21,447 nucleotides of DNA from a virus: the IMG/VR virus record IMGVR_UViG_3300037487_002208, positions 1 through 21,447 of that record, one strand, 5' to 3'. Position 1 is the stretch's first letter. The number at the start of each line of letters is the position of its first letter. The position numbers and the translations under genes are program-made. Under the pieces are notes generated by a model. It worked only from the letters and a program-made list of their open reading frames with translations. It searched no databases and was not told the origin of the DNA. Positions 2 through 21,384 of the stretch are shown piece by piece.

Positions 2-3000
2 CAGCCAGAAACAGATAAATGGATTGAGGTGCAAGCAGTGGACGCAGAGATGTTCGATATGTCGTGGCGCCCTGACCCAAGGGAGCCACCATTCATATAC
101 GTATGGGGTAACAAGTGGATACCTGCTGAGTTACAGCCGACATTAGAGTATCACGTACCAGGCGCCACAGAACGCAAGTACATGGACGAACTGGTGGAAG
201 TATTGCCTGATGGCAACTGGAGTGAAGTTCAGCCGATTGACAAGTCGTCATTTGATTTGTCATGGCGTCCTGATCCAAGAGAACCACCCTTCGTCTATGT
301 GTGGGGCAACAAGTGGATTTCCCCTGAGGTACAATCTACGATTGAGTACACATGCCCCGGTGCCACTGAGCGCAAGTACATGAGCGAGTTAGTTGAAGTC
401 CTCCCTGAAGAAAAACGATGGAATGAAGTTCAGTCGATCACCAAACAATTTGATCTGACATGGAGACCTGATCCGCGTGAGCCTCCCTTCATATACGTAT
501 GGGGGAACAAATGGATACCAGGTGAACTGAAAGCAACACTGGAATATATCTGTCCTGGTGCCACGGAGCGAAAGTACATGAGTGATCTTGTTGCCGTTCA
601 ACCGGAGGCAGATAAATGGATTGAGGTGCAAGCAGTGGACTCAGAGATGTTCGATATGTCCTGGAGACCTGATCCACGTGAGCCGCCGTTTATCTACGTA
701 TGGGGTAACAAGTGGATACCTGCTGAACTACAACCGACATTAGAGTATCACGTACCAGGCGCCACAGAACGCAAGTACATGGACGAACTAGTAGAAGTGC
801 TACCTAATAATAATTGGAACGTGCTTATCCCGCCAGCCAACTTTGATTTCAGCTGGAGACCTGACCCGAGAGAACCGCCATTCATCTACGTGTGGGGCAA
901 TAAGTGGGTATCTGCTGAATTTCAATCAACGTTAGAGTATGTGTGCCCGGGTGCCACCCAAAAGAAATACATGTCAGAGATAGTTGAAATTTTACCTGAC
1001 ATGACCCCTTGGAAAATCATTGAGACCGTAAGAGGATTCGACTTCAGTTGGAGACCTGATCCCACCAGTCCGCCGTATATCTATGTATTTGGTAACACCC
1101 AATATCCTGGGATGGTGATGCCTACACTTGAGTATCATGTGGAAGGAGCAGTTGATCGCAAATACATCACCGACATTGTTCCTACTCTGGCACCGGATCA
1201 ATCTCTATTCAAACAACTGATTTCGGTAGCGGCGTTTGACTTCAGTTGGAGACCTGACCCGACGAGCCCACCATATATCTACGTATGGGGTAACCAATGG
1301 AATGCAGTTGATGTTGAACCTACACTGGAATTTCATGCACATGGCGCCACTGAATACAAGTATATGACTGATCAGGTTGCGTATGTTTCTTCCATGAAGG
1401 AGAACTTTGAAATAGTGGAAGATGTTGACACCTTTGACTTTAGTTGGAGACCAGACCCGAGAGAGCCCGCCTTCGTCTATGTATGGGGCAATACTCAATA
1501 CCCGGGCACAAAGATGCCTACTGTCAGGTATCGTTGTCCCGGCGCCACACAAGAAAAGCACATGACAAATATAGTGGCTACTCTGGCGCAACGCCCCGAC
1601 TTATTTGAGAATGTTGTGGAGAAGTTTGATTACAGTTGGAGACCTGACCCAACCAGCCCTGCGTATGTGTATCAGTTCGGAACTCTACTTGACGAGTTTG
1701 ACGGACCACGATTTATCGTACCTGGTAATGATACCACAATAGTCAAGGTAAATCGCCAAGAAATTATACTTGAGAACATTGTCTTTCCTAAATATAAGAT
1801 TGAGACAACACTCGATGCGCTGATAATGGCGCACCCAGGAGAAATATTCTGGGCGTTGAATCCTGATCTTGATTACACTGAGTTCGACTTCAAGTGGTTA
1901 CCTGACGAAAAGAATGTGTATCACATCAATGCGTTCGGCTCTAAAGATTCTATTAACTCGCAGACTTACTTTGTTAACGGCAAGATGTGGGCCCGTGGTT
2001 ATCGTGATATCAATTATGTCGAGGGCAAAACAGTTAATCTGAAAACGGTCATTCATATGTTTTATGTTGACCGTGGTAATGCTGAATCCACAGAACGCTT
2101 TGAGGCTCTACAGAAACGTTATAGTAACATTCAAAAGACCAGATATCTCAACTCCTGGGTTGATACTATCAACCGTTGTATCAACCGATCATCTACCACA
2201 TTGTGCTGGATACTGAACAGTGAACTTGACTACAGCACATTTGAGTTTGATTTCTATCCTAGCCCATGGCAGATGAGGATGGTGCATGTCTTCGGCACTC
2301 AATGGAGTCATTGGGGCACGACCTTCATGGTGAATAAAGAAAACTTTGCTGAGGAAACAAAGTATATAAAGATCATTGAGCACCTGTCTATGCTGAATTT
2401 CGTGCGGCGTAAGACTGCGACGGCAACGAACCGGCTGTATGATATTGTGATGATCGACCATGGTAACTCGTATGAATTTGATAGAATACCGGGAATTGTG
2501 GTTCAGTATGACCATAACTACCTGAATACCTTCAGGCGAATACTGAAAGAATTACCAGTCAAGAAGGACCATTATGTTTGGATATGCAGTTCAGTGTGCG
2601 ATTACTCCAGATTTGACTTCAGTTACATATGCGACCCGTTTGCCAGAGAACAACTCCATGTCTTTCCGAGCAACAAGCAAAAGTTTGGTGACACGTTCCT
2701 GGTTGATGTTAACAGGCTTAGGACTTTGCTACCTGAAATGACAACTCTGGAAGACTACTACAAAATTAACTTCAATCAACATCAGCGAGTGAACCGATTG
2801 CCGCCACCAGTAATCACTGTTAACGCTGATACACATGTAGATGAAATCACAGATGACTTTAGTTTCCCGTATGCGGTATTTGAGACAGAGCCACTCTCTA
2901 TCATAGACAATGAACCAATGAATCTATGGACACCAGAGACAAAAACTCTAATAGTTACCAGCACCGGCGGCACCAGAGTCATAGTGCCTAAGGAGGCGAA

Positions 3001-3739
3001 GGCCTACCTTAGGAAAGAACTGTATGATTATCCGTATATTAAGAAGGCGAGCACGTTGATCAAGTCCGCCCCACTTGATATCGTCTTCCTGAGTAACGGT
3101 GAAACCGGCGCGGATGAAAACTATGAGCATTTGCTAAAGGTAACTAGCGGGTTACCTAATAGAGTAGTCAGAGTAGACGGAGTCACTGGGCGAGTTGCTG
3201 CCTATCATGCATCAGCAAAGGCCAGCGAGACACCGTGGGCGTTTACTGTATTCGCCAAGTTGAAAGTGAACCCGAAGTTTGACTGGGCATGGCAACCCGA
3301 CAGACTTCAGGTGCCAAAGCATTACATCTTTCATGCCACTAATCCTGTCAATGGCCTGGTATACGGTCACCAGGCAATGATCGCGTACAACAAGAAAATC
3401 GTTCTGGCTAATACTGGTCACGGGCTTGACTTTACGCTTGACGATGAACACGAAGTTGTAGAGGTAAACTCCGGTATGGCAAACTTCAACACTGATGAGT
3501 TCAGCACCTGGCGCACTGCTTTTAGAGAAGCCATAAAACTTCGGGCATCTGATTCCGAAGAGAGCAAGGCACGACTGAACATATGGCAAACCGTTGCCGA
3601 TGGTGAATTTGCCGATAGTTGTATTGATGGAGTCCATCAGGCTCTGGCATATTATGCCGAAGTGGATGGTGACATGGCTGCTCTACGATTGAGTTATGAT
3701 TGGGCATGGATACACCAGCGTTTTACCAAATATCATTGA
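2..3739 (+). CDS. Giant modular repeat protein with WRPDP/VWGN modules, 5' end outside window
   Basis: The frame is open from base 2, so the gene starts upstream; 1,245 codons are visible plus the stop. It begins with eight modules of about 65 residues (first bases at 53, 251, 449, 650, 842, 1037, 1235 and 1433), each opening F-D-x-S/T-W-R-P-D-P, then P-x-[IV]-Y-V-[WF]-G-N, a P-T-L-E-Y-like segment, G-A-T-x-x-K-Y-M and a variable linker. From 1625 on, four or so degenerate modules follow (FDYSW, FDFKW, FEFDF, FDFSY). The C-terminal ~300 residues are non-repetitive, with stretches such as RVDGVTGR, SETPWAFTVFAK and WRTAFRE. I recall similar modular proteins from T4-like marine and freshwater phages, where function is unassigned. 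The C-terminal part could be glycosyltransferase-like, but I see no clear DxD. A role in the virion or in surface glycan handling is inference only. A late sigma70/late promoter pair for the next unit overlaps its stop codon. Confidence 0.8.
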   Translation, partial: QPETDKWIEVQAVDAEMFDMSWRPDPREPPFIYVWGNKWIPAELQPTLEYHVPGATERKYMDELVEVLPDGNWSEVQPIDKSSFDLSWRPDPREPPFVYVWGNKWISPEVQSTIEYTCPGATERKYMSELVEVLPEEKRWNEVQSITKQFDLTWRPDPREPPFIYVWGNKWIPGELKATLEYICPGATERKYMSDLVAVQPEADKWIEVQAVDSEMFDMSWRPDPREPPFIYVWGNKWIPAELQPTLEYHVPGATERKYMDELVEVLPNNNWNVLIPPANFDFSWRPDPREPPFIYVWGNKWVSAEFQSTLEYVCPGATQKKYMSEIVEILPDMTPWKIIETVRGFDFSWRPDPTSPPYIYVFGNTQYPGMVMPTLEYHVEGAVDRKYITDIVPTLAPDQSLFKQLISVAAFDFSWRPDPTSPPYIYVWGNQWNAVDVEPTLEFHAHGATEYKYMTDQVAYVSSMKENFEIVEDVDTFDFSWRPDPREPAFVYVWGNTQYPGTKMPTVRYRCPGATQEKHMTNIVATLAQRPDLFENVVEKFDYSWRPDPTSPAYVYQFGTLLDEFDGPRFIVPGNDTTIVKVNRQEIILENIVFPKYKIETTLDALIMAHPGEIFWALNPDLDYTEFDFKWLPDEKNVYHINAFGSKDSINSQTYFVNGKMWARGYRDINYVEGKTVNLKTVIHMFYVDRGNAESTERFEALQKRYSNIQKTRYLNSWVDTINRCINRSSTTLCWILNSELDYSTFEFDFYPSPWQMRMVHVFGTQWSHWGTTFMVNKENFAEETKYIKIIEHLSMLNFVRRKTATATNRLYDIVMIDHGNSYEFDRIPGIVVQYDHNYLNTFRRILKELPVKKDHYVWICSSVCDYSRFDFSYICDPFAREQLHVFPSNKQKFGDTFLVDVNRLRTLLPEMTTLEDYYKINFNQHQRVNRLPPPVITVNADTHVDEITDDFSFPYAVFETEPLSIIDNEPMNLWTPETKTLIVTSTGGTRVIVPKEAKAYLRKELYDYPYIKKASTLIKSAPLDIVFLSNGETGADENYEHLLKVTSGLPNRVVRVDGVTGRVAAYHASAKASETPWAFTVFAKLKVNPKFDWAWQPDRLQVPKHYIFHATNPVNGLVYGHQAMIAYNKKIVLANTGHGLDFTLDDEHEVVEVNSGMANFNTDEFSTWRTAFREAIKLRASDSEESKARLNIWQTVADGEFADSCIDGVHQALAYYAEVDGDMAALRLSYDWAWIHQRFTKYH
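53..1624 (+). repeat. Tandem array of eight ~197-nt coding modules, with a 597-nt higher-order duplication
   Basis: Module starts are spaced 192-201 nt apart and remain in frame. The first module, with its upstream linker from base 14, is copied at 611 with an exact 597-nt offset (three modules). Linker and central blocks are almost identical between the two copies, including 30 identical bases at 14-43 versus 611-640. The part encoding R-P-D-P-R-E-P-P-F differs at many synonymous positions. This pattern points to recent duplication or patchy gene conversion between modules. Confidence 0.85.
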
Positions 3740-3764
3740 TCTGATGATAAATACCTGATATAAT
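3736..3764 (+). promoter_or_regulatory. Overlapping sigma70-type and late-type promoters upstream of the tmRNA
   Basis: TTGATC at 3736-3741 and TATAAT at 3759-3764 are separated by exactly 17 nt. A late-type box, GATAAATA, lies inside the spacer at 3746-3753. The -35 overlaps the stop codon of the giant repeat gene. The predicted start from the sigma70 boxes is at about 3770, and from the late box at about 3759. Both would read into the tmRNA. Confidence 0.6.
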
Positions 3765-3769
3765 ACGGC

Positions 3770-3865
3770 ATGAGAATATTATTATTACTTGGTGCATTTC
3801 TTGCCAGTTGCGGAATTAGTATTTCTGTGATTTGGTTGGTTTTACACCTACTCGGAGTTTTATAA
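3770..3865 (+). CDS. Possible 31-aa membrane peptide or lipoprotein ORF ahead of the tmRNA
   Basis: The ORF has 31 codons, starts MRILLLLGAF and is hydrophobic throughout, with LASC at residues 11-14 resembling a lipobox. No Shine-Dalgarno sequence is present. The ATG lies 6 nt after the TATAAT box, so translation would need a leaderless mRNA, as predicted for other genes here. It fills exactly the gap between the promoter and the tmRNA acceptor piece. It could simply be the T-rich 5' leader of the tmRNA precursor, in which case it is not a gene. I favour neither strongly. Confidence 0.3.
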   Translation: MRILLLLGAFLASCGISISVIWLVLHLLGVL

Positions 3866-4185
3866 TTGTTGTAATCCCTTCGAAATGAAGGCGGGCAAGA
3901 CGCGAGTTCGAATCTCGCCAGGTCCACCAGTAAGCAATCTGAATCTAACGATCAGGTTTGGCATCCCAGGTAAACTCTCCCGCAAGGGACTCGCCCGAAT
4001 ACGCCAAGATTGCTTTCTAATGGGCCTGCTCTGGTAATCGATTGCGCGAGATAGTAGAGACGGCAACAGGAACGATGATGGACCTAATCCACATAAAACT
4101 TATAACTGCAAATGACGAGTTATTTTCTCTGGCTGCGTGAGCAACAGAGATGAGGTAGAAAAGACCTTATAACCAAACCAATCAG
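3866..4185 (+). ncRNA. ssrA: Circularly permuted (two-piece) tmRNA, tag ANDELFSLAA
   Basis: tmRNA rescues stalled ribosomes by acting as alanyl-tRNA and then as mRNA for a degradation tag. The acceptor piece comes first: T arm GCGAG-TTCGAAT-CTCGC (3902-3918), then CAGGTCC-A-CCA ending at 3929. The coding piece starts at 4022 with GGGCCTG, which pairs with CAGGTCC over all 7 bp and creates the G3-U70 wobble that specifies alanine. It continues CTCTGGTAATCGA, resembling the ATTCTGGATTCGAC of E. coli tmRNA. The tag frame at 4108-4140 reads GCA resume codon, A-N-D-E-L-F-S-L-A-A, TGA; the E. coli tag is ANDENYALAA. The TGA sits in the loop of a hairpin TCTCTGGCTGC/GCAACAGAGA, as in helix 5 of known tmRNAs. 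The intervening segment 3930-4021 is closed by AAGCAATCT (3932-3940) pairing with AGATTGCTT (4007-4015), extending the acceptor stem. The 5' boundary is approximate. Pseudoknots were not resolved. Confidence 0.93.
4108..4140 (+). other. tmRNA tag reading frame
   Basis: The frame starts at a GCA resume codon and encodes ANDELFSLAA followed by TGA. The AND start and LAA end are the conserved parts of proteobacterial tags; the final LAA is what ClpXP and related proteases recognise. The middle residues (ELFS) differ from ENYA of E. coli. Confidence 0.93.
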
Positions 4186-4210
4186 AAAGGCTCCTCGGGG
4201 CCTTTTCTTT
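4186..4210 (+). terminator. Intrinsic terminator after tmRNA
   Basis: AAAGGC (4186-4191) pairs with GCCTTT (4200-4205) and is followed by a T-rich run (TTTTCTTT). It directly follows the coding piece of the tmRNA and precedes the next late promoter. Confidence 0.75.
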
Positions 4211-4216
4211 CGGGCG

Positions 4217-4224
4217 GCTAAATA
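4217..4224 (+). promoter_or_regulatory. Late-type promoter box GCTAAATA
   Basis: This is a variant of the GATAAATA/CTAAATA box seen before many genes here, analogous to the T4 late TATAAATA. Counting as in T4 (+1 is 6 nt after the box), transcription would begin at about 4229-4230, on the ATG of the 52-aa gene. Confidence 0.5.
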
Positions 4225-4228
4225 TTGG

Positions 4229-4387
4229 ATGCTTGAAAACATTTACCAACAATGGCAGTGCGGTAACGAAAACTATATTGAACGGTATATGGATTTCGTC
4301 AGACTATTTGCCAAACTTATGGACTATTCCGTGGAAGAGAGTTTGAGTATGCTAGAAAGCGAACCCTGGTTCCACAAACCACAATAA
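4229..4387 (+). CDS. Hypothetical acidic 52-aa protein
   Basis: It begins MLENIYQQWQ and ends SEPWFHKPQ. It is rich in aromatic and acidic residues, with no signal peptide or membrane segment, and is probably a small helical cytoplasmic protein. The ATG lies 4 nt after a late-type box and has no Shine-Dalgarno sequence, so it is a candidate for leaderless translation. It sits alone between the tmRNA terminator and the next late promoter. The frame is closed cleanly by TAA and codon use looks like its neighbours. I do not recognise the family. Confidence 0.6.
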   Translation: MLENIYQQWQCGNENYIERYMDFVRLFAKLMDYSVEESLSMLESEPWFHKPQ

Positions 4388-6543: not shown

Positions 6544-6572
6544 TTGACAATAAATCCCAAATCTGCTATAAT
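6544..6572 (+). promoter_or_regulatory. Early sigma70-type promoter (TTGACA, 17 nt, TATAAT)
   Basis: The spacer ATAAATCCCAAATCTGC belongs to the 'CCC' subtype. It drives the HExxH protease gene, which has a CAGGA ribosome site. Confidence 0.9.
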
Positions 6573-7180: not shown

Positions 7181-7891
7181 TCACTTTTTCTTGCAGTTAA
7201 CCCCGTGGTTTTTAGTGAAATTGCCTTTACCTTTGCCTTGTTTACCGCAATACTGACATGCCCATTCAACTTGAGATGGGCTGTTCTTTCCTAAAAAATT
7301 ATGCGACCCATCATGAATCCTTTTAGAATTCATTGTTGATCCGAGGAAATGATGAGTGCCATTCTTTACTCGATTCAAATTTATATCACGCTGAAATTCT
7401 GAATCAAGAAAATGATGCGTTCCGTTTTCTACCCGGTTACTTGACACACTGGTTCCATCGTCCTTCTTCATCAAGTGATGCGTTCCATTTTTTACTTTTT
7501 CCAATTGTATTTGTAATACCTTTGATTGAAATTCTGAATTTAGAAAATGATGAGTACCGTTGGTCAACCTTTGTTTAGCACTTACCCTCGCGACCTCACC
7601 TCCTAATAAATTATGAGTTCCATTTTGGATTCTTTTGGTGTTTTCTAACTGCATCAATCTTGACTTTTCCTCTGGGAGGATCAATATCCTATTTGCTAGT
7701 AAAACACATGCTCCCCAATCACCTTGTTGATAATGTATATCATAGTGATCTTGGACAGACAATGCGCGGAGATTTTCTGGTGAGTTATTGGAGTGTTTGC
7801 CGTCGAGGTGATGGATGTCGTATGTTCGTCCATCATTATCTTTTGGTATTGGACCGAAATGGTCTTCGTAAATTTTACGATAAATATTCAT
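7181..7891 (-). CDS. HNH homing endonuclease with NGTHHFL repeats and C-terminal zinc finger
   Basis: I place the start at 7891 (236 aa, MNIYRKIYED), not further upstream, because the shared cassette leader ends in CAGC-ATG there. The HNH core is D-I-H27-H28-L-D-G-x-H-S-N-N-x-P-E-N40-L with H49 and H53 in Q-D-H-Y-D-I-H-Y, a nicking or cutting beta-beta-alpha-metal site. The middle holds six copies of a N-G-T/S-H-[NH]-[FL]-L motif spaced by 15-35 residues, probably DNA-contacting modules of the NUMOD type. The C-terminus has C212-x2-C215 and H229-x3-C233, a likely zinc finger. The gene runs against all its neighbours and sits in a self-contained cassette with a late promoter, between the protease operon and the phosphoesterase promoter. 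It would cut cognate phage DNA lacking the cassette. Confidence 0.9.
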   Translation of the reverse strand: MNIYRKIYEDHFGPIPKDNDGRTYDIHHLDGKHSNNSPENLRALSVQDHYDIHYQQGDWGACVLLANRILILPEEKSRLMQLENTKRIQNGTHNLLGGEVARVSAKQRLTNGTHHFLNSEFQSKVLQIQLEKVKNGTHHLMKKDDGTSVSSNRVENGTHHFLDSEFQRDINLNRVKNGTHHFLGSTMNSKRIHDGSHNFLGKNSPSQVEWACQYCGKQGKGKGNFTKNHGVNCKKK

Positions 7892-7958
7892 GCTGATGCC
7901 CTTTCCGGCGTTAGAGAGGGTGGGAAGTCCAATTCCGCGACTCTCACTTTTATTTAGT
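7892..7958 (-). promoter_or_regulatory. Endonuclease cassette leader, copy 1: late promoter plus 5' hairpin
   Basis: On the - strand the late box ACTAAATA (7958-7951) is followed by AAAGTGAGAGTCGCGG, a loop, CCACCCTCTCTAA, and a purine-rich segment ending ATCAGC-ATG. GAGAG pairs with CTCTC and an inner GGAA pairs with TTCC. With +1 about 6 nt after the box, the hairpin is at the extreme 5' end of the mRNA. Matching copies are at 10801-10867, 17037-17119 and 21376-21440. Confidence 0.85.
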
Positions 7959-7963
7959 CCGAT

Positions 7964-7992
7964 TTGACAATAAATGGATTTTCTGTTATAAT
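7964..7992 (+). promoter_or_regulatory. Early sigma70-type promoter (TTGACA, 17 nt, TATAAT)
   Basis: The spacer ATAAATGGATTTTCTGT is the 'GG' subtype. It starts 5 nt from the divergent late box of the HNH cassette. The next ATG is 6 nt beyond the -10, so the mRNA is predicted to be leaderless. Confidence 0.9.
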
Positions 7993-7998
7993 CATAGT

Positions 7999-8544
7999 AT
8001 GAATCAAAAAATCTTTGTATGTGCCGATACACATTTCGGACATGGTAATATCATGAAGTTCTGCCCGAACACCCGACAATTCCGTGACGTTCACCACATG
8101 AACGCCATGATGATCAAAGAGTGGAACGAGACCGTTGGTCCCGACGACTTGGTCTATCACTTGGGTGACTTCGCCTTCTTGAAGCCAGAGTCTGCAATCG
8201 CCACGGCGCGTATGTTGCACGGACGCAAGATTTTGATCGAGGGAAACCACGACGACAAGTTGTTGCGTGAGCCGGGCTTCCGCGCATGTTTTGAAGAAGT
8301 TCATAAGTATCACGAAATCGTGGTTGACGGCAATCATGTGGTGATGTTTCACTACCCGATCGCTGAGTGGAACAAGTGCCATCGTGGCTCTGTTCAATTG
8401 CACGGGCATGTTCACGGCAAGGATGTCGGCATGAGCAAGTTCCGAGTGCGTGACGCCTCAATGGATTCGCGTGGAACGGTTGTGACCGAAATGTCCACTA
8501 TCGTGCGTGACGCTCTGCGTGGCGAAATCTTTCAACATCACTAA
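7999..8544 (+). CDS. Calcineurin-like metallophosphoesterase
   Basis: The protein has 181 residues. All the two-metal motifs are present in order: D9-T-H11 in CADTHFGH, GD in YHLGDFAF, GNHD in LIEGNHDD, H in FHYP, and the GHxH motif in LHGHVHGK. This matches the compact single-domain phosphoesterase family common in phages, which hydrolyses phosphomono- or diesters; the real substrate (nucleotide, RNA end or protein phosphate) cannot be told. The length is normal for the family. There is no Shine-Dalgarno sequence and the promoter -10 is 6 nt before ATG, so translation is probably leaderless. It is first in an early operon followed by five or six small overlapping genes. Confidence 0.9.
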   Translation: MNQKIFVCADTHFGHGNIMKFCPNTRQFRDVHHMNAMMIKEWNETVGPDDLVYHLGDFAFLKPESAIATARMLHGRKILIEGNHDDKLLREPGFRACFEEVHKYHEIVVDGNHVVMFHYPIAEWNKCHRGSVQLHGHVHGKDVGMSKFRVRDASMDSRGTVVTEMSTIVRDALRGEIFQHH

Positions 8545-10073: not shown

Positions 10074-10144
10074 AGCAAGAATTACAAAAGTTCGTACAAG
10101 AAAACCCGAAGTTGGTGACGATGCGTGAAACGTCTCCGGGCTAG
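10070..10144 (+). pseudogene. 5' stump of a gene, possibly an RNA ligase, cut off by the GIY-YIG cassette
   Basis: After an AGGAAG ribosome site, a TTG start opens a frame of 24 codons reading (M)KQELQKFVQENPKLVTMR followed by ETSPG and TAG. The QENPKLVTMRETS-P-G pattern resembles the N-terminus of phage RNA-ligase-family proteins as I remember them (they continue PGLxVLKYxRKVFY). Here the frame runs straight into the 3' end of the opposing GIY-YIG gene and the remaining coding sequence does not reappear before 10928. This looks like insertion plus deletion. Alternatively it is a real 24-residue peptide; I think that less likely. Confidence 0.45.
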
Positions 10145-10800
10145 AAGTAACATTTAAGTTCAGGAAGCCATCGTGACGCCTGATTCTTGGCAAGTTCTTT
10201 GTGGTCGGATATCCTACATAAAAACGGAACTGAATTAAATAATTTGGGTCTGCCTATCGCAGACTCACTCCGTTTTTTTCGCGTTTCTGCGGTATCCTGT
10301 TTGCCTAAATGTTTTATACGATTTGCCTCATTTGATTCAGGTGAATGAGTCCTCCCTGTCATACTAAATTTAGCACGATGTTCCTTTGTCATCGGTGGCC
10401 GATTAGGAGCGTATGGCGCAGGTACACCTTTGCGATGGGCAGTTCTTTTTCGTATATGTTCTTTTGTTTGTGATTTACCGTACGCAAAACCTCGTCTAGC
10501 ATATGCTTCATTGATATACATGTCATTTACGGATGCTTTAACATGTACTTGTAAATAGTACTCTCGTTCCACTGCTTCTTTTCTGGTCTGATGTGTAGTT
10601 AGTATCACTGTTTTGAACTGATCAGGATTGTTGGTTAATTCAGATTTCCAAATTGATTTATATTTTCTTGATGATACGGACCCGTGATAACCGGTTTGAA
10701 TTTTCGTAACTGATGTTGACCCTAGATAAAACATGGGTAGTTTGTTACCACGATAGATAGTTAAATAGACGCAGTAGGGGAAACTGTTATAAATAGTCAT
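10141..10800 (-). CDS. GIY-YIG homing endonuclease with NUMOD3-like repeats
   Basis: The protein has 219 residues and starts MTIYNSFPYC. The GIY-YIG domain occupies about residues 8-95: Y-C-V-Y12 (GIY variant), F-Y-L-G-S-T near 24-29 (YIG variant), and a catalytic Glu in A-V-E-R-E-Y-Y (78-80). Downstream are NUMOD3-like basic helices with K-E-H-[IR]-x-K and S-P-E-x-x-E patterns that bind DNA. The start is fixed by the cassette leader (TGGAG then CAGC-ATG). The gene opposes its neighbours, sits 5 nt from the next early promoter through its own late box, and appears to have replaced most of an older gene at its 3' end. It probably acts as a free-standing mobile element. Confidence 0.9.
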   Translation of the reverse strand: MTIYNSFPYCVYLTIYRGNKLPMFYLGSTSVTKIQTGYHGSVSSRKYKSIWKSELTNNPDQFKTVILTTHQTRKEAVEREYYLQVHVKASVNDMYINEAYARRGFAYGKSQTKEHIRKRTAHRKGVPAPYAPNRPPMTKEHRAKFSMTGRTHSPESNEANRIKHLGKQDTAETRKKRSESAIGRPKLFNSVPFLCRISDHKELAKNQASRWLPELKCYF

Positions 10801-17177: not shown

Positions 17178-17882
17178 ATGAGTTTTACTAGACATGTGGG
17201 GCGCCATGGTGACCGTAAGGTAGCCGTTATTTTTCGTGAAGTACCAGGTGAGCCACATATGTGTTTGGTCACTTATACCGAACTAATCAATTCGCACATT
17301 CACGATGCGCTGATTCGGTGCATTGACAGCGACATCGGTCAGAACAGCGAAAATCTGGCAGACGCACTAAACCGGTCATACACTCAAGATGGTCGCCCAA
17401 TCCTCGGAGTTCTTCACACAGAGGGCCAATTGAAGAAGGTTCAAACTGCTCAGATCGTTATGACACCGAATCCTACTACCAAGATCAAGTTGGACGAACT
17501 GAATACTATGCTCAATGAAATGAAATTGGGCGAAGCCGCTGTGAAGAAAATGGCAGACATGGACAAGAGTATGGGAATGCAATCACCGGGCGAAGTTGCT
17601 CGTAGGATGCGCGGTCCACAAACACCTATCGTTGCATCTGGCTCCGATGTTCTTGGTGATGCCCTTCTTGCAAAGCAACGCATTGAACAAGCAAACAAGA
17701 TGGCTGCTGAGGCACAAGGTCTCCTTGCTGAATCTGCCCGACTGATGACCGAAGCGCAATCTTTGGATCCATCATTGGCACCTAAAGCAAGTAAAACTAA
17801 ACGCAAAGCAACTCCGCCCCCAGTAGTCATCGCTCCTGCGGCCAAACGTAAGTATGTTCGCAAAGTAGCAAATGTCACCTGA
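17178..17882 (+). CDS. Conserved T4-like phage protein of unknown function, 234 aa
   Basis: It begins MSFTRHVGRHGDRKVAVIF and contains F-R-E-V-P-G-E-P-H-M-C-L-V and L-D-E-L-N-T-M-L-N-E-M-K-L-G-E. I recall this combination from T4-like phages of aquatic bacteria, where it is an unassigned conserved gene. The last ~110 residues are Ala/Lys-rich and helical (coiled-coil-like, IEQANKMAAEAQGLLAESARLM), ending in a basic Pro/Lys tail. A strong ribosome site (AAGGAG) and a late promoter suggest high late expression, for example a structural or scaffold role; that is inference. It overlaps the next gene by 11 nt. Confidence 0.75.
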   Translation: MSFTRHVGRHGDRKVAVIFREVPGEPHMCLVTYTELINSHIHDALIRCIDSDIGQNSENLADALNRSYTQDGRPILGVLHTEGQLKKVQTAQIVMTPNPTTKIKLDELNTMLNEMKLGEAAVKKMADMDKSMGMQSPGEVARRMRGPQTPIVASGSDVLGDALLAKQRIEQANKMAAEAQGLLAESARLMTEAQSLDPSLAPKASKTKRKATPPPVVIAPAAKRKYVRKVANVT

Positions 17883-18168
17883 ATTTCTATCTAAGTGGGA
17901 ACATATTCTTGCTGACGTTGAGAAAAATAAAATACCCATTCAGTTTATCAAGAAATTGGTAATCAGACTTGAAGGTAAAAGGCAGCAGACGGTGAACATT
18001 CACAATCTGTTGAAACAGGGACTGGAACCAGAACAAGTTGAGGAAGTGCTAAACCGAAAACTTGAAGAACTTGATTCAATCATTTCAAGTGTGGAGTTCA
18101 TTCTCAACGTGGAATCAATTGCCGAAACGGTGCAACCATTGACCGACGAGATGCTAAAAAATCTATAA
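17872..18168 (+). CDS. Conserved phage protein, 98 aa, partner of the preceding gene
   Basis: It begins MSPEFLSKWE and contains R-L-E-G-K-R-Q-Q-T-V-N-I-H-N-L-L-K-Q-G-L-E-P-E-Q-V-E-E-V-L, a strand-helix-turn-helix-like pattern, then an acidic helix and I-A-E-T-V-Q-P-L-T-D-E. I recall this small protein lying beside the previous one in T4-like aquatic phages. The two overlap by 11 nt, so they are co-translated. Function unknown. Confidence 0.75.
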   Translation: MSPEFLSKWEHILADVEKNKIPIQFIKKLVIRLEGKRQQTVNIHNLLKQGLEPEQVEEVLNRKLEELDSIISSVEFILNVESIAETVQPLTDEMLKNL

Positions 18169-18217: not shown

Positions 18218-19165
18218 ATGAAACAATATTTAGATTTACTCCAAGACATTTTAGACAACGGCGAAGAAAAAGATGACAGGACTGGTGTTGGCACTCGTAG
18301 TGTTTTCGGGCGTAGTATCCGCTTTGATCTGCGTTCTTCCTTCCCGGCTGTTACCACAAAAAAACTGGCCTGGAAAGCGGTAGTCAGCGAACTACTCTGG
18401 TTCATTGAAGGATCCGGCGACGAAGGCCGATTGAGAGAAATCCTATACGGCGACCGTGAAGCAAAAACTGATCACGGCGTCCATAAGAAAACAATCTGGA
18501 GTGACAATGCTAATGCTCCGTATTGGCAACCCAAGGCAGAATATCCCGGAGACCTCGGACGAGTCTACGGAGTTCAATGGCGTCACTGGAAAACATTCAC
18601 CCCGACCAATTCAGTAGTCGCAAACAAAGATGCGTACTGGCCCGACGAAGTAAAAACCGTGGGGCATCTTCCTGCGTATGTCCAGACCAGAAAAGTAGAT
18701 CAACTATTCGACCTCATCGAAGGATTGAAGAAAGATCCGAATGGTCGGCGTCACATTGTAGTAAGTTATAATCCCGGAGAATTAGATCAGATGGCTTTGC
18801 CGCCATGCCACGCCATGTTCCAAATGTATGTGTCAAAAAATAAATTATCGTGTCAGATGTACCAACGCAGCGGAGACGCTTTTTTAGGAATCCCATTTAA
18901 TATAGCATCTTATGCCTTATTAACTCACATGATAGCACAGGTGTGTAATATGGAAGTTGGTGAGTTGATATTAGTATTTGGTGATGTTCATATTTATAAA
19001 AATCATATAGATCAGGTTAATGAACTTTTATCAAGAGAACCAATGGAAGCACCAGCCCTTTATTTAAACCCCGGCGTAAAAGATATTAACTCCTTCACGA
19101 TGGCTGATATAAATCTTGTAAATTACAAATCCCATCCCGCCCTAACTGCACCAATGGCCGTTTAA
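18218..19165 (+). CDS. thyA: Thymidylate synthase
   Basis: It converts dUMP and methylene-THF to dTMP and dihydrofolate, supplying thymine for phage DNA. I start it at ATG 18218 (315 aa, MKQYLDLLQD); an in-frame GTG at 18203 lies before the -10. Key parts are present: R-T-G-V-G-T-R, W-x-x-x-x-S-E-L-L-W-F, R177-R178, the nucleophile C197 in L-P-P-C-H-A, Q-R-S-G-D220, N228 in P-F-N-I-A-S-Y, H258/Y260 and the C-terminal A-P-M-A-V. N228 corresponds to the Asn that selects uracil, so this is a dUMP enzyme and not a T4-like dCMP hydroxymethylase. A dUMP hydroxymethylase cannot be excluded. It is longer than E. coli ThyA through insertions around residues 75-160. From about residue 222 to the end the codons become AT-rich, as in the GIY-YIG gene that follows. 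Confidence 0.95.
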   Translation: MKQYLDLLQDILDNGEEKDDRTGVGTRSVFGRSIRFDLRSSFPAVTTKKLAWKAVVSELLWFIEGSGDEGRLREILYGDREAKTDHGVHKKTIWSDNANAPYWQPKAEYPGDLGRVYGVQWRHWKTFTPTNSVVANKDAYWPDEVKTVGHLPAYVQTRKVDQLFDLIEGLKKDPNGRRHIVVSYNPGELDQMALPPCHAMFQMYVSKNKLSCQMYQRSGDAFLGIPFNIASYALLTHMIAQVCNMEVGELILVFGDVHIYKNHIDQVNELLSREPMEAPALYLNPGVKDINSFTMADINLVNYKSHPALTAPMAV

Positions 19166-19178
19166 ATTAAAGATTAGT

Positions 19179-19186
19179 GATAAATA
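19179..19186 (+). promoter_or_regulatory. Late-type promoter box GATAAATA
   Basis: It lies between thyA and the GIY-YIG gene and gives a ~26-nt leader with AAGG. This leader lacks the shared hairpin of the other endonuclease cassettes. Confidence 0.65.
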
Positions 19187-19217
19187 CATGAGAGAAGGGG
19201 CATAAGGTAAAACTCAC

Positions 19218-20081
19218 ATGATAATATATAAAACCACAAACTTACACAACGGTAAAATTTATGTAGGGAAAGATAAGTATAACGATCCGTTGTATTTGGG
19301 GTCAGGTGACTTATTATGTAAAGCAATCAAAAAATATGGCAGAGACATCTTTAGAAAAGAGATTATCGAGGAGTGCTGTGCGTCAAACATAAATGAGCGC
19401 GAAAAATTTTGGATTAACTTTTATAAATCTAGAGACCGCGGCGTAGGTTATAATATTGCAGAAGGTGGGTCAGGTGGCGACACCATGAGTAAACATCCGA
19501 ATAAGGCAGAGATAGGATTGCGTCATAGCATAGCAATGACTGGTAAAACTCCTAGCCAAGAAAACAGAAAACCGTGTTCAGCAGAAACTAAATTAAAATT
19601 ATCAAAGGCTTCTGCTGGCGAAAGAAATCCCATGTTTGGAAAAACGCACAATGATTTAACCAAGCAAAAGATTTCAGCAATTCAACGAAAGAGGGATCCT
19701 TTTTCAAGAGTAGTTTCGAGTATAACAAAACAAAAAATATCTAAAGCCAATATCGGTAAAATAATGACCCAGGAGGCAAAGCAAAAAATATCAGAGGCTA
19801 ATTCGGGTGAGAGAAATGGCTTTTATGGGAAAAAGCATACTATTGAAAATATTGAAATATGTAGGGGAAACGGTAGATTGCCCAAGTCGTCTATTACACG
19901 GCAGAGAATAAGTGATTCACTTAAAGGAAAATATCATGGATCCCAAAACAAAATATTTATAGCAAACGGAACCGAATTCAAATCATTAGGTCAGTGTTTT
20001 AAACTTACTAACGAACCCATTCATATTATTCGGGGAAAGTTAAAGACCGGTGTATATTTTTATGTTGGCAAGGAAGTATAA
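19218..20081 (+). CDS. GIY-YIG homing endonuclease with NUMOD3 repeats and NUMOD1-like tail
   Basis: The protein has 287 residues. The catalytic domain (1-95) shows K-I-Y15-V-G-K, L-Y26-L-G-S-G, R46 in F-R-K-E-I-I-E-E and a Glu in N-E-R-E-K-F-W. NUMOD3-like repeats follow (L-K-L-S-K-A-S-A-G-E-R-N-P-M-F-G-K, Q-K-I-S-K-A-N-I-G, Q-K-I-S-E-A-N-S-G-E-R-N-G-F-Y-G-K), then a helix-turn-helix-like end (G-T-E-F-K-S-L-G-Q-C-F). This is the general layout of I-TevI-type enzymes. The gene is markedly more AT-rich than the early genes and follows thyA, a classic target of such enzymes. It is on the + strand with its own late promoter; its stop overlaps the next ATG (TAATG), so the insertion ends exactly at a gene start. 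Confidence 0.93.
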   Translation: MIIYKTTNLHNGKIYVGKDKYNDPLYLGSGDLLCKAIKKYGRDIFRKEIIEECCASNINEREKFWINFYKSRDRGVGYNIAEGGSGGDTMSKHPNKAEIGLRHSIAMTGKTPSQENRKPCSAETKLKLSKASAGERNPMFGKTHNDLTKQKISAIQRKRDPFSRVVSSITKQKISKANIGKIMTQEAKQKISEANSGERNGFYGKKHTIENIEICRGNGRLPKSSITRQRISDSLKGKYHGSQNKIFIANGTEFKSLGQCFKLTNEPIHIIRGKLKTGVYFYVGKEV

Positions 20082-20410
20082 TGGGATATTTTTCAATCAA
20101 AGGACCAATGGTTTCTCGTCACCCACCTGAGTTCAAGTATCAAATGGTAGAGGTCAACGGTAAGGAGTATGTTACCAGCGAGATGGTAGTTTACCAATTT
20201 CAGGTTTGGTCTGATGATCCGATCGTGGCAGCAGCAGCCCCGCTTTATGCATGGGAACAAACTGAAGCAGGTAAATGGGTAAAAGAACATGCCGTTGAAA
20301 TTCCTCGATGGGAACGGTGCACTGATCATGTCACCCTCAACGAACAGTTTGCTATTATAGCACGGCTCACAGAGCCAGATCAAACATTTTTTAGATTGAA
20401 ATTCTTATGA
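20081..20410 (+). CDS. Hypothetical conserved phage protein, 109 aa
   Basis: It begins MGYFSIKGPM with its ATG overlapping the endonuclease stop codon, and contains V-N-G-K-E-Y-V-T-S-E-M-V-V-Y-Q-F-Q-V, S-D-D-P, A-P-L-Y-A-W-E-Q-T-E-A-G-K-W-V. I recall similar proteins in T4-like aquatic phages, without assigned function. Composition returns to the normal GC of the window here. It overlaps the epimerase gene by ATGA. Cytoplasmic and soluble by sequence. Confidence 0.75.
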   Translation: MGYFSIKGPMVSRHPPEFKYQMVEVNGKEYVTSEMVVYQFQVWSDDPIVAAAAPLYAWEQTEAGKWVKEHAVEIPRWERCTDHVTLNEQFAIIARLTEPDQTFFRLKFL

Positions 20411-21384
20411 AGATACTGGTCACCGGAGGCCTCGGATTGATAGGCCACAATGTAGTCGCACGTTTAGAACAACTCGGTCATTCCGTGATGATCTTTGATA
20501 CACGCACCACATACGGAATAATTCCACAGGATGAACTTGATTATCTGATGGAGGAACGACTGAAGAAGATCAAGACTTCGGCGATCTGGCCGATCCATAT
20601 TGTCAGTGCCCGGGCCGACACAATAATTTCAGAAGATCCGCCGGATGTTGTGATGCACCTGGCAAGTTTCCCCAGGCAGAAAGTCGTCAATGCAAACCCA
20701 CAACTTGGCTCCGAAACAATGAGTCAGGGGCTTTTGAATCTGCTTGAGGCGAGTGTCCGCGGGAAGGTAAAACGCTTTATGTATGTCAGCAGCAGCATGG
20801 TCTACGGTGACTTCACTGATGATGTCACTGAGGACTATGTCTGTAAACCACAGGGACAATACGGCATTATGAAATATGCCGGCGAGTTGCTGGTAAAGGA
20901 TTACACACGCAAGCATGGCATGGCTCATACGATCATCCGACCGAGCGCAGTATACGGACCACTTGATGTAGAAGACCGGGTCATTGCCAAGTTCATGCTT
21001 CAGGCGATGCGCGGTGAGGTCCTCAAGGTCAATGGATCAAATGAAACTCTGGACTTCACTTTTTCCACAGACGCCGCCGACGGAATAGTAGCAGCAGCCC
21101 TAAGTGAAAATGCCATGAATAAAACCTACAACATAACCAAAAGCCATAGCCGCACTTTATTAGATGCAGCGCAGTTGGCAGTGAAAATAGTTGGTAAGGG
21201 GTCCATTGAAGTGCGAGGCAAAGATGCTGATTTTCCCTCGCGAGGTGCTCTGAATATTAGTGCCGCTAGGCGCGATTTTGGATTTGATCCTAAAATAGAT
21301 GTAGAAGAAGGATTTCAAAAATACTATGAATGGATCAAGGGAAGTTCATATTGGCAAGCCAAGTTGAATACAAATGATAAATAG
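20407..21384 (+). CDS. NAD-dependent nucleotide-sugar epimerase/dehydratase (extended SDR)
   Basis: The protein has 325 residues. The Rossmann NAD site is T-G-G-L-G-L-I-G (residues 6-13), followed by an acidic D31 in I-F-D-T. The active site has S-S-S-M-V-Y-G and Y-G-I-M-K, the YxxxK dyad with Ser. Later, I-I-R-P-S-A-V-Y-G-P binds the sugar nucleotide. These mark a UDP-glucose-4-epimerase or dTDP-glucose-dehydratase-like enzyme; which reaction cannot be told. It fits a role in glycan or virion/host-surface modification, possibly with the giant repeat protein. ATGA overlap with the previous gene; its stop codon overlaps the next late promoter (GAT-AAA-TAG). Confidence 0.9.
   Translation: MKILVTGGLGLIGHNVVARLEQLGHSVMIFDTRTTYGIIPQDELDYLMEERLKKIKTSAIWPIHIVSARADTIISEDPPDVVMHLASFPRQKVVNANPQLGSETMSQGLLNLLEASVRGKVKRFMYVSSSMVYGDFTDDVTEDYVCKPQGQYGIMKYAGELLVKDYTRKHGMAHTIIRPSAVYGPLDVEDRVIAKFMLQAMRGEVLKVNGSNETLDFTFSTDAADGIVAAALSENAMNKTYNITKSHSRTLLDAAQLAVKIVGKGSIEVRGKDADFPSRGALNISAARRDFGFDPKIDVEEGFQKYYEWIKGSSYWQAKLNTNDK

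Follow-up and report, generated by a model that had tools for sequence, protein, structure and literature searches.

A chimeric thyA gene beside a free-standing GIY-YIG homing endonuclease gene in a virus record with T4-like genes: a probable case of intronless homing

The stretch of DNA analysed here (the window) is a 21.4-kb virus record with T4-like genes. It carries an intact but chimeric gene for thymidylate synthase, thyA (18218..19165, plus strand; 315 aa; Pfam PF00303, 339 bits), the halves of which group with different phages. By amino acid identity, the 5' part (18218..18704) is closest to the relative L003 and appears to represent the recipient lineage; the 3' part (18758..19165), judged by amino acid identity and the AU test, is an apparently imported allele (type B) common to L004 and L006–L008, and a recombination junction interval lies between the two (18705..18758). 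Alignment to the T4 td exon junction TTCTTGGGT|CTACCG (NC_000866), together with published I-TevI cut positions (PMC2988022), maps two putative counterparts to 18863..18890: CAACG at 18863-18867 for the I-TevI cleavage motif, and 18889|18890 (FLG|IPF) for the site of td intron insertion. The next gene on the same strand (19218..20081) is predicted to encode a free-standing GIY-YIG homing endonuclease of 287 aa with NUMOD3 motifs. It starts 52 bp past thyA, after a short intergenic leader (19166..19217, read from the sequence) in which GATAAATAC at 19179-19187 resembles a T4-type late promoter and may act as one. Its stop codon overlaps the start codon of a 109-aa gene, also on the plus strand (20081..20410).

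Several other features were recorded in the window and its relatives. Upstream of thyA, the window has neither a DHFR gene nor a GIY-YIG gene, only a sigma70-like TTGACA-17-TATCAT element; L003 has a different GIY-YIG gene immediately 5' of thyA (3271-3888, minus strand), at the position where L004, L006 and L009 have DHFR. In L017 (3336-4858), the 5' end of thyA is partially duplicated, with an inserted 166-aa gene between the duplicate and the full thyA. A permuted two-piece tmRNA of betaproteobacterial type (3813-4231, plus strand; Rfam beta_tmRNA, 118.7 bits; ARAGORN tag ANDELFSLAA*) hints at a betaproteobacterial host. Two further homing endonuclease genes lie on the minus strand at 7181-8032 (HNH_3) and 10141-10800 (GIY-YIG, just under the Pfam cut-off); a gene 43% identical to the former is found in L116 (2739-3464) immediately 3' of the epimerase gene, where the window ends. 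Intergenic repeats of ~31 bp, early-promoter-like, occur near 6544, 7963, 9540, 12772, 13044, and 15007, and a 1236-aa ORF (29-3739) contains many FDFSWRPDP..PPYIYVWGN-type repeats.

NCBIfam and a fold search settled the family of the thyA-side nuclease. TIGR01453 (group I intron endonuclease) scored 95 bits against a cut-off of 56, and Pfam NUMOD3 scored 94 bits, pointing to a modular DNA-binding region; the Pfam GIY-YIG model did not reach the protein, a PDB sequence search returned zero matches, and the I-TevI zinc finger model gave no match. An AlphaFold model built from 22 relatives had pLDDT above 90 in the first 80 residues, and its best PDB matches were the I-TevI catalytic domain structures 1MK0/1LN0 (1MK0: E 1.2e-4, probability 1.00). 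The GIY-N10/11-YIG motif is present as IIY-x10-YVG (residues 2-17, first Gly replaced by Ile). E62 and N79 are invariant in the 22 relatives and align to the Glu and Asn of I-TevI; where I-TevI has the catalytic Arg of motif B, the window nuclease and L037/L195 have an alignment gap at or next to that position. Identity to I-TevI is 29% over 199 aa. Judged by profile and model, the product of 19218-20081 is most readily identified as a GIY-YIG homing endonuclease of the I-TevI/NUMOD3 type.

The first-pass annotation had described thyA as turning AT-rich from about codon 222, with the AT-richness running on through the nuclease gene. The AT-rich stretch is real: codons 223-315 have GC 0.358 and GC3 0.28, compared with 0.468 and 0.455 in codons 1-222, and none of 2,987 same-size in-frame windows taken from the other non-endonuclease genes of the fragment was as low in GC and GC3. 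Its edge, however, is ill-defined: the change-point lies at codon 220 for GC3 (permutation p = 0.051) and at 18822 for GC over all positions. ATA codons are indeed absent before the break, but five, not four, follow it (Fisher p = 0.026). Across a comparison set of 115 related thyA genes, a milder 3' GC drop is a general property (mean change across codon 222: GC -0.05, GC3 -0.02), and the drop in the window (GC -0.11, GC3 -0.175) ranks second in size. A drop is also seen in L006 (-0.071 GC), which has no nuclease. The nuclease gene does share the low GC (0.359), but this is uninformative alone, since the window's two further endonuclease genes also have low values (GC 0.383 and 0.391); AT-richness of the nuclease as proof of a common donor was rejected for that reason.

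Comparison of the two thyA halves gave a sharper picture of their separate descent. Codons 1-120 share 87.5% amino acid identity with L003 (next best about 80%, L004/L006 about 69-70%), and codons 181-315 share 85% with L004/L006 (next best about 70%); L003 has the GC of the window, and L004 and L006 have 0.365. The window groups with L003 in the 5' tree and with L004 and L006 in the 3' tree, and enforcing the opposite arrangement lowers the log-likelihood by 66 and 72 units (AU p = 0.0035 and 0.001), grouping of the 3' part with L003 being rejected by the AU test. The earlier proposal of an imported 3' part is thereby upheld, congruence of the two phylogenies being clearly not what was found. 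From these comparisons, the thyA 3' part derives from a more AT-rich lineage, and recombination is the cause of the AT-rich stretch. In the 5' tree, L004 and L006 do not form a sister pair; one 3' allele is therefore present on three different backbones, of which two lack the nuclease (L004 and L006-L008 all carry type B without it).

Sites that distinguish L003 from L004/L006 switch at 18704/18706 (max-chi; matched in strength by 0/5000 shuffles). A variable stretch with poor likeness to either parent follows, and from about 18758 most of the sites are of the donor type; with one donor at a time, the comparisons put the switch at positions ranging from -305 to -184 relative to FLG|. The homology break (about 18,705-18,758) is thus upstream of the composition break. 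The T4 record agrees that F-L-G|L-P-F is the td intron site, as had been stated. Its window counterpart lies inside the apparently imported tract, 130-185 nt from the tract start, and the annotated position of the break, exactly at FLG|IPFN, had to be abandoned, since the informative sites rule out a junction there. The 315-codon frame is continuous across 18889|18890, with no interruption at FLG| such as a mobile td-type intron would make, and an intron remnant in thyA was rejected on this ground. A search for relatives with an intron at this site had been suggested; none was seen in the intact thyA genes compared. Rfam found no intron in the window, a weak negative given that the known td intron of phage Melville was also missed.

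Genes flanking the import stay with the L003 lineage on both sides (17178-18168 and 20081-21384), and the import ends near the nuclease. Identity to L003 is 79% for the gene at 17178 and 94% for that at 17872 (others at most 71% in both cases), 59% at the amino acid level for the gene at 20081 (other relatives at most 42%), and 84% for the epimerase (others at most 72%); for the VWA gene, no lineage stands out. With flanks on both sides closest to L003, the window is the likely recipient. A donor with both the type-B 3' part and the window nuclease was not found among the loci compared, and in searches for the origin of the type-B part the best identities were only 57-59% in a bacterial-genome scan and at most 63% among phage records. 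Nor did we find a near relative of the window without the nuclease, which would show its own empty site: the siblings L002 and L116, 98.5% identical to the window, both carry it. These two have zero mismatches to the window from 18659 to 20136 and share a patch of ~87% identity at 20137-20236, in gene 20081 just 3' of the nuclease gene.

Linkage to thyA extends to relatives of the window nuclease, which lie beside or inside this gene in four other phages. The best full-length IMG/VR relative, in L037 (3494-5090), lies inside thyA and interrupts it, as a split gene or as an intron, at a place that corresponds to codons 124 to 157. The strongest named-phage match, in Yersinia phage fHe-Yen9-01, is directly 3' of td, and in two Acinetobacter phages the relatives adjoin td on the opposite strand; some other relatives are located elsewhere in their genomes. 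A second, I-TevI-like family has the I-TevI zinc finger, and its best database matches are I-TevI of td introns, with 39-40% identity to I-TevI over 208 aa in the closest two. Its members are free-standing, 6-61 nt 3' of thyA on the same strand, at 27 loci (some near-duplicates) retrieved by the nuclease alone. Truncated copies in L172, L214, and L277 suggest decay.

Starts of conversion tracts were placeable only in nuclease carriers with close non-carrier relatives, to within some tens of bases because of conserved codons just upstream; other carriers, with no close non-carrier relative, showed no sharp break. Divergence rises from 8.6% to 41% between L240 and L256, and from 9% to 30% between L150 and L134, in both cases 28 nt before FLG|. 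By informative sites, the switch in L150 falls at -25/-24 for two of three donor proxies, and that in L240 between -61 and -6, depending on the proxy; L009 gave no clear position. The foreign tracts of L240 and L150 therefore begin some 20-30 nt 5' of the td site; the cuts made by I-TevI fall 23 and 25 nt upstream of the site, and the 20 bp to which the enzyme binds are centred there (PMC2988022). Strong thyA breaks were present in 5/6 close pairs for carriers versus 31/134 for non-carriers (p = 0.004), the latter lying elsewhere in thyA except in the remnant-bearing L214. Clustering of carriers was seen on the 3' tree, with 6 changes (a number this low in 0.2% of shuffles), and not on the 5' tree (8 changes; 17%). 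The relatives, rather than the window's own junction, thus make it plausible that the td site and thyA-side nucleases are linked.

Carriers differ most from the non-carrier consensus at codons 216-230. The canonical site SVDVFLGLPFNI was present in 0/10 dereplicated carriers and in 76/101 non-carriers, the second count including the 80 loci from the L003 query, which are biased in that the search pattern CHMYQRSV covers part of the td site. Because of this bias, we ran the site test again on loci obtained through other queries, whose retrieval was site-independent (unbiased non-carrier count 37/58), and on a set from a separate 5'-only query (74/77 non-carriers canonical; one carrier, non-canonical). 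The search by nuclease alone found no canonical site beside any nuclease copy. The catalytic Arg codon is AGR in 8/13 carriers and 25/172 non-carriers. Shared ancestry inflates these carrier and site counts, and independent pairs of nuclease and altered site number about 4 to 0 (p = 0.125), too small for significance. We discarded a further test, of distinct carrier alleles versus non-carrier sequences (p about 1e-7), because of its uneven counting. L342 and L344 are non-carriers with a carrier-type site, which may be as expected if the nuclease can be lost; other histories also fit.

We consider it probable that a free-standing GIY-YIG nuclease spreads by intronless homing into the thyA of related phages. 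During co-infection, the donor's nuclease would cut the 3' region of thyA in a phage without the nuclease gene, and repair off the donor would copy in the nuclease gene together with flanking thyA sequence. The L003-like lineage of the window would have been the recipient, taking the segment from about 18,705-18,758 to about 20,081 from an AT-rich donor. Nuclease and thyA 3' part would then have arrived in one event, started by a break in thyA, and homing would be the cause of the 3' co-conversion; by analogy with the related nuclease family, the cut may have been near the td-intron site. Intronless homing with co-conversion explains the chimera, the adjacency, the thyA linkage, and the carrier sites by one mechanism. 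It is supported by the conflicting half trees, junction signal, and L003 flanks in the window, and by the thyA-linked nuclease relatives, carrier mosaicism, clustering on the 3' tree, L240/L150 tracts, and altered sites outside it. Counting against it are the lack of a donor or empty-site relative among the loci found, the frequency of thyA recombination without a nuclease, the position of the window junction away from the td-type cut, and the p value of 0.125 for independent pairs.

A serious rival, although one we rate as unlikely, is that ordinary recombination between co-infecting T4-like phages made the chimera and the nuclease came separately, the adjacency being a coincidence helped by thyA being a common recombination site. 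The 31 nuclease-less pairs with strong breakpoints speak for such a history, as do the type-B 3' part on backbones that lack the nuclease and the AT-richness of this phage's endonuclease genes wherever they are located. It remains serious because thyA is mosaic without the nuclease and neither a donor nor an empty-site relative of the window was found. Against it, breaks are overrepresented in carriers, carriers with different 5' backbones have 3' parts in common, and the tracts of two carriers begin near the td-type cut position.

The first-pass annotation had instead proposed that exon 2 was co-converted with a nuclease now outside the gene, and the import it postulated is supported, whereas its intron is not. 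Under that account, a td-type intron homed into FLG|IPFN, co-converted exon 2, and was later lost, the nuclease having moved outside. In its favour are the position of the td site within the imported tract, the assignment of the nuclease to the 'group I intron endonuclease' subfamily of NCBIfam, and the match of the nuclease fold to I-TevI. However, neither the uninterrupted window thyA nor the intact thyA genes compared contain an intron, free-standing relatives occur in several phage groups, and the junction is 130-185 nt upstream, so that we regard a lost intron as improbable; with a free-standing nuclease and no intron, intronless homing with co-conversion fits better. That no import took place, and that composition or selection acting locally, through amino-acid content or codon use, made the thyA 3' region AT-rich, agrees with the general mild drop among thyA genes but can be dismissed as highly improbable, given a drop near the extreme of the 115 relatives and strongly conflicting half trees, an incongruence that refutes it.

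Free-standing GIY-YIG homing endonucleases are a known kind of element, and intronless homing in the window has several points of comparison. As in the T4 I-TevI/td intron, a GIY-YIG nuclease is linked to thyA/td, with an FLG|LPF-type site and co-conversion of flanking thyA sequence; unlike that system, the window has no intron, its nuclease following 52 bp after an uninterrupted thyA, and the enzyme is NUMOD3-rich with no match to the I-TevI zinc finger model. The T4 seg endonucleases SegF and SegG are likewise free-standing GIY-YIG genes adjoining a conserved phage gene, intact in the window, and their intronless homing involves a cut site away from the insertion site and co-conversion tracts (PMC2988022). 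Co-conversion of flanking target-gene sequence is similarly indicated here by the 3' import and in L240 and L150; the window differs in that the neighbour is thyA, and its homing is putative. Collaborative homing (F-CphI and similar; PMC2988022, PMC10448857) also pairs a free-standing nuclease with a neighbouring gene in which a known intron site may be the target, but no intron occupies the site in the phages examined here. The mobE gene in nrdA of phage Aeh1 resembles L037, where a nuclease relative interrupts thyA, unlike the intact thyA of the window. We found no report of free-standing I-TevI-like genes at intronless thyA with td-site tracts in the open literature searched, which covered few subscription papers and is weak evidence of novelty.

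More tentatively, and with somewhat less than even confidence, we propose that free-standing I-TevI-like nucleases form a pool in environmental T4-like phages and cut intronless thyA at the sequence where T4 has its td intron, with carriers protected by a recoded site (partly through synonymous changes at the catalytic Arg codon) and the protected 3' half passed on with the nuclease. If true, these nucleases would be the intron-free counterparts or ancestors of I-TevI called for by the collaborative-homing model, and would bear on how mobile introns gain a nuclease already matching their insertion site. Free-standing I-TevI relatives by intronless thyA, tracts near the I-TevI cut, and altered carrier sites make this question directly testable. 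An essential phage enzyme can, it would seem, be pieced together around selfish genes, and single-gene thyA phylogenies of T4-like phages would therefore mislead.
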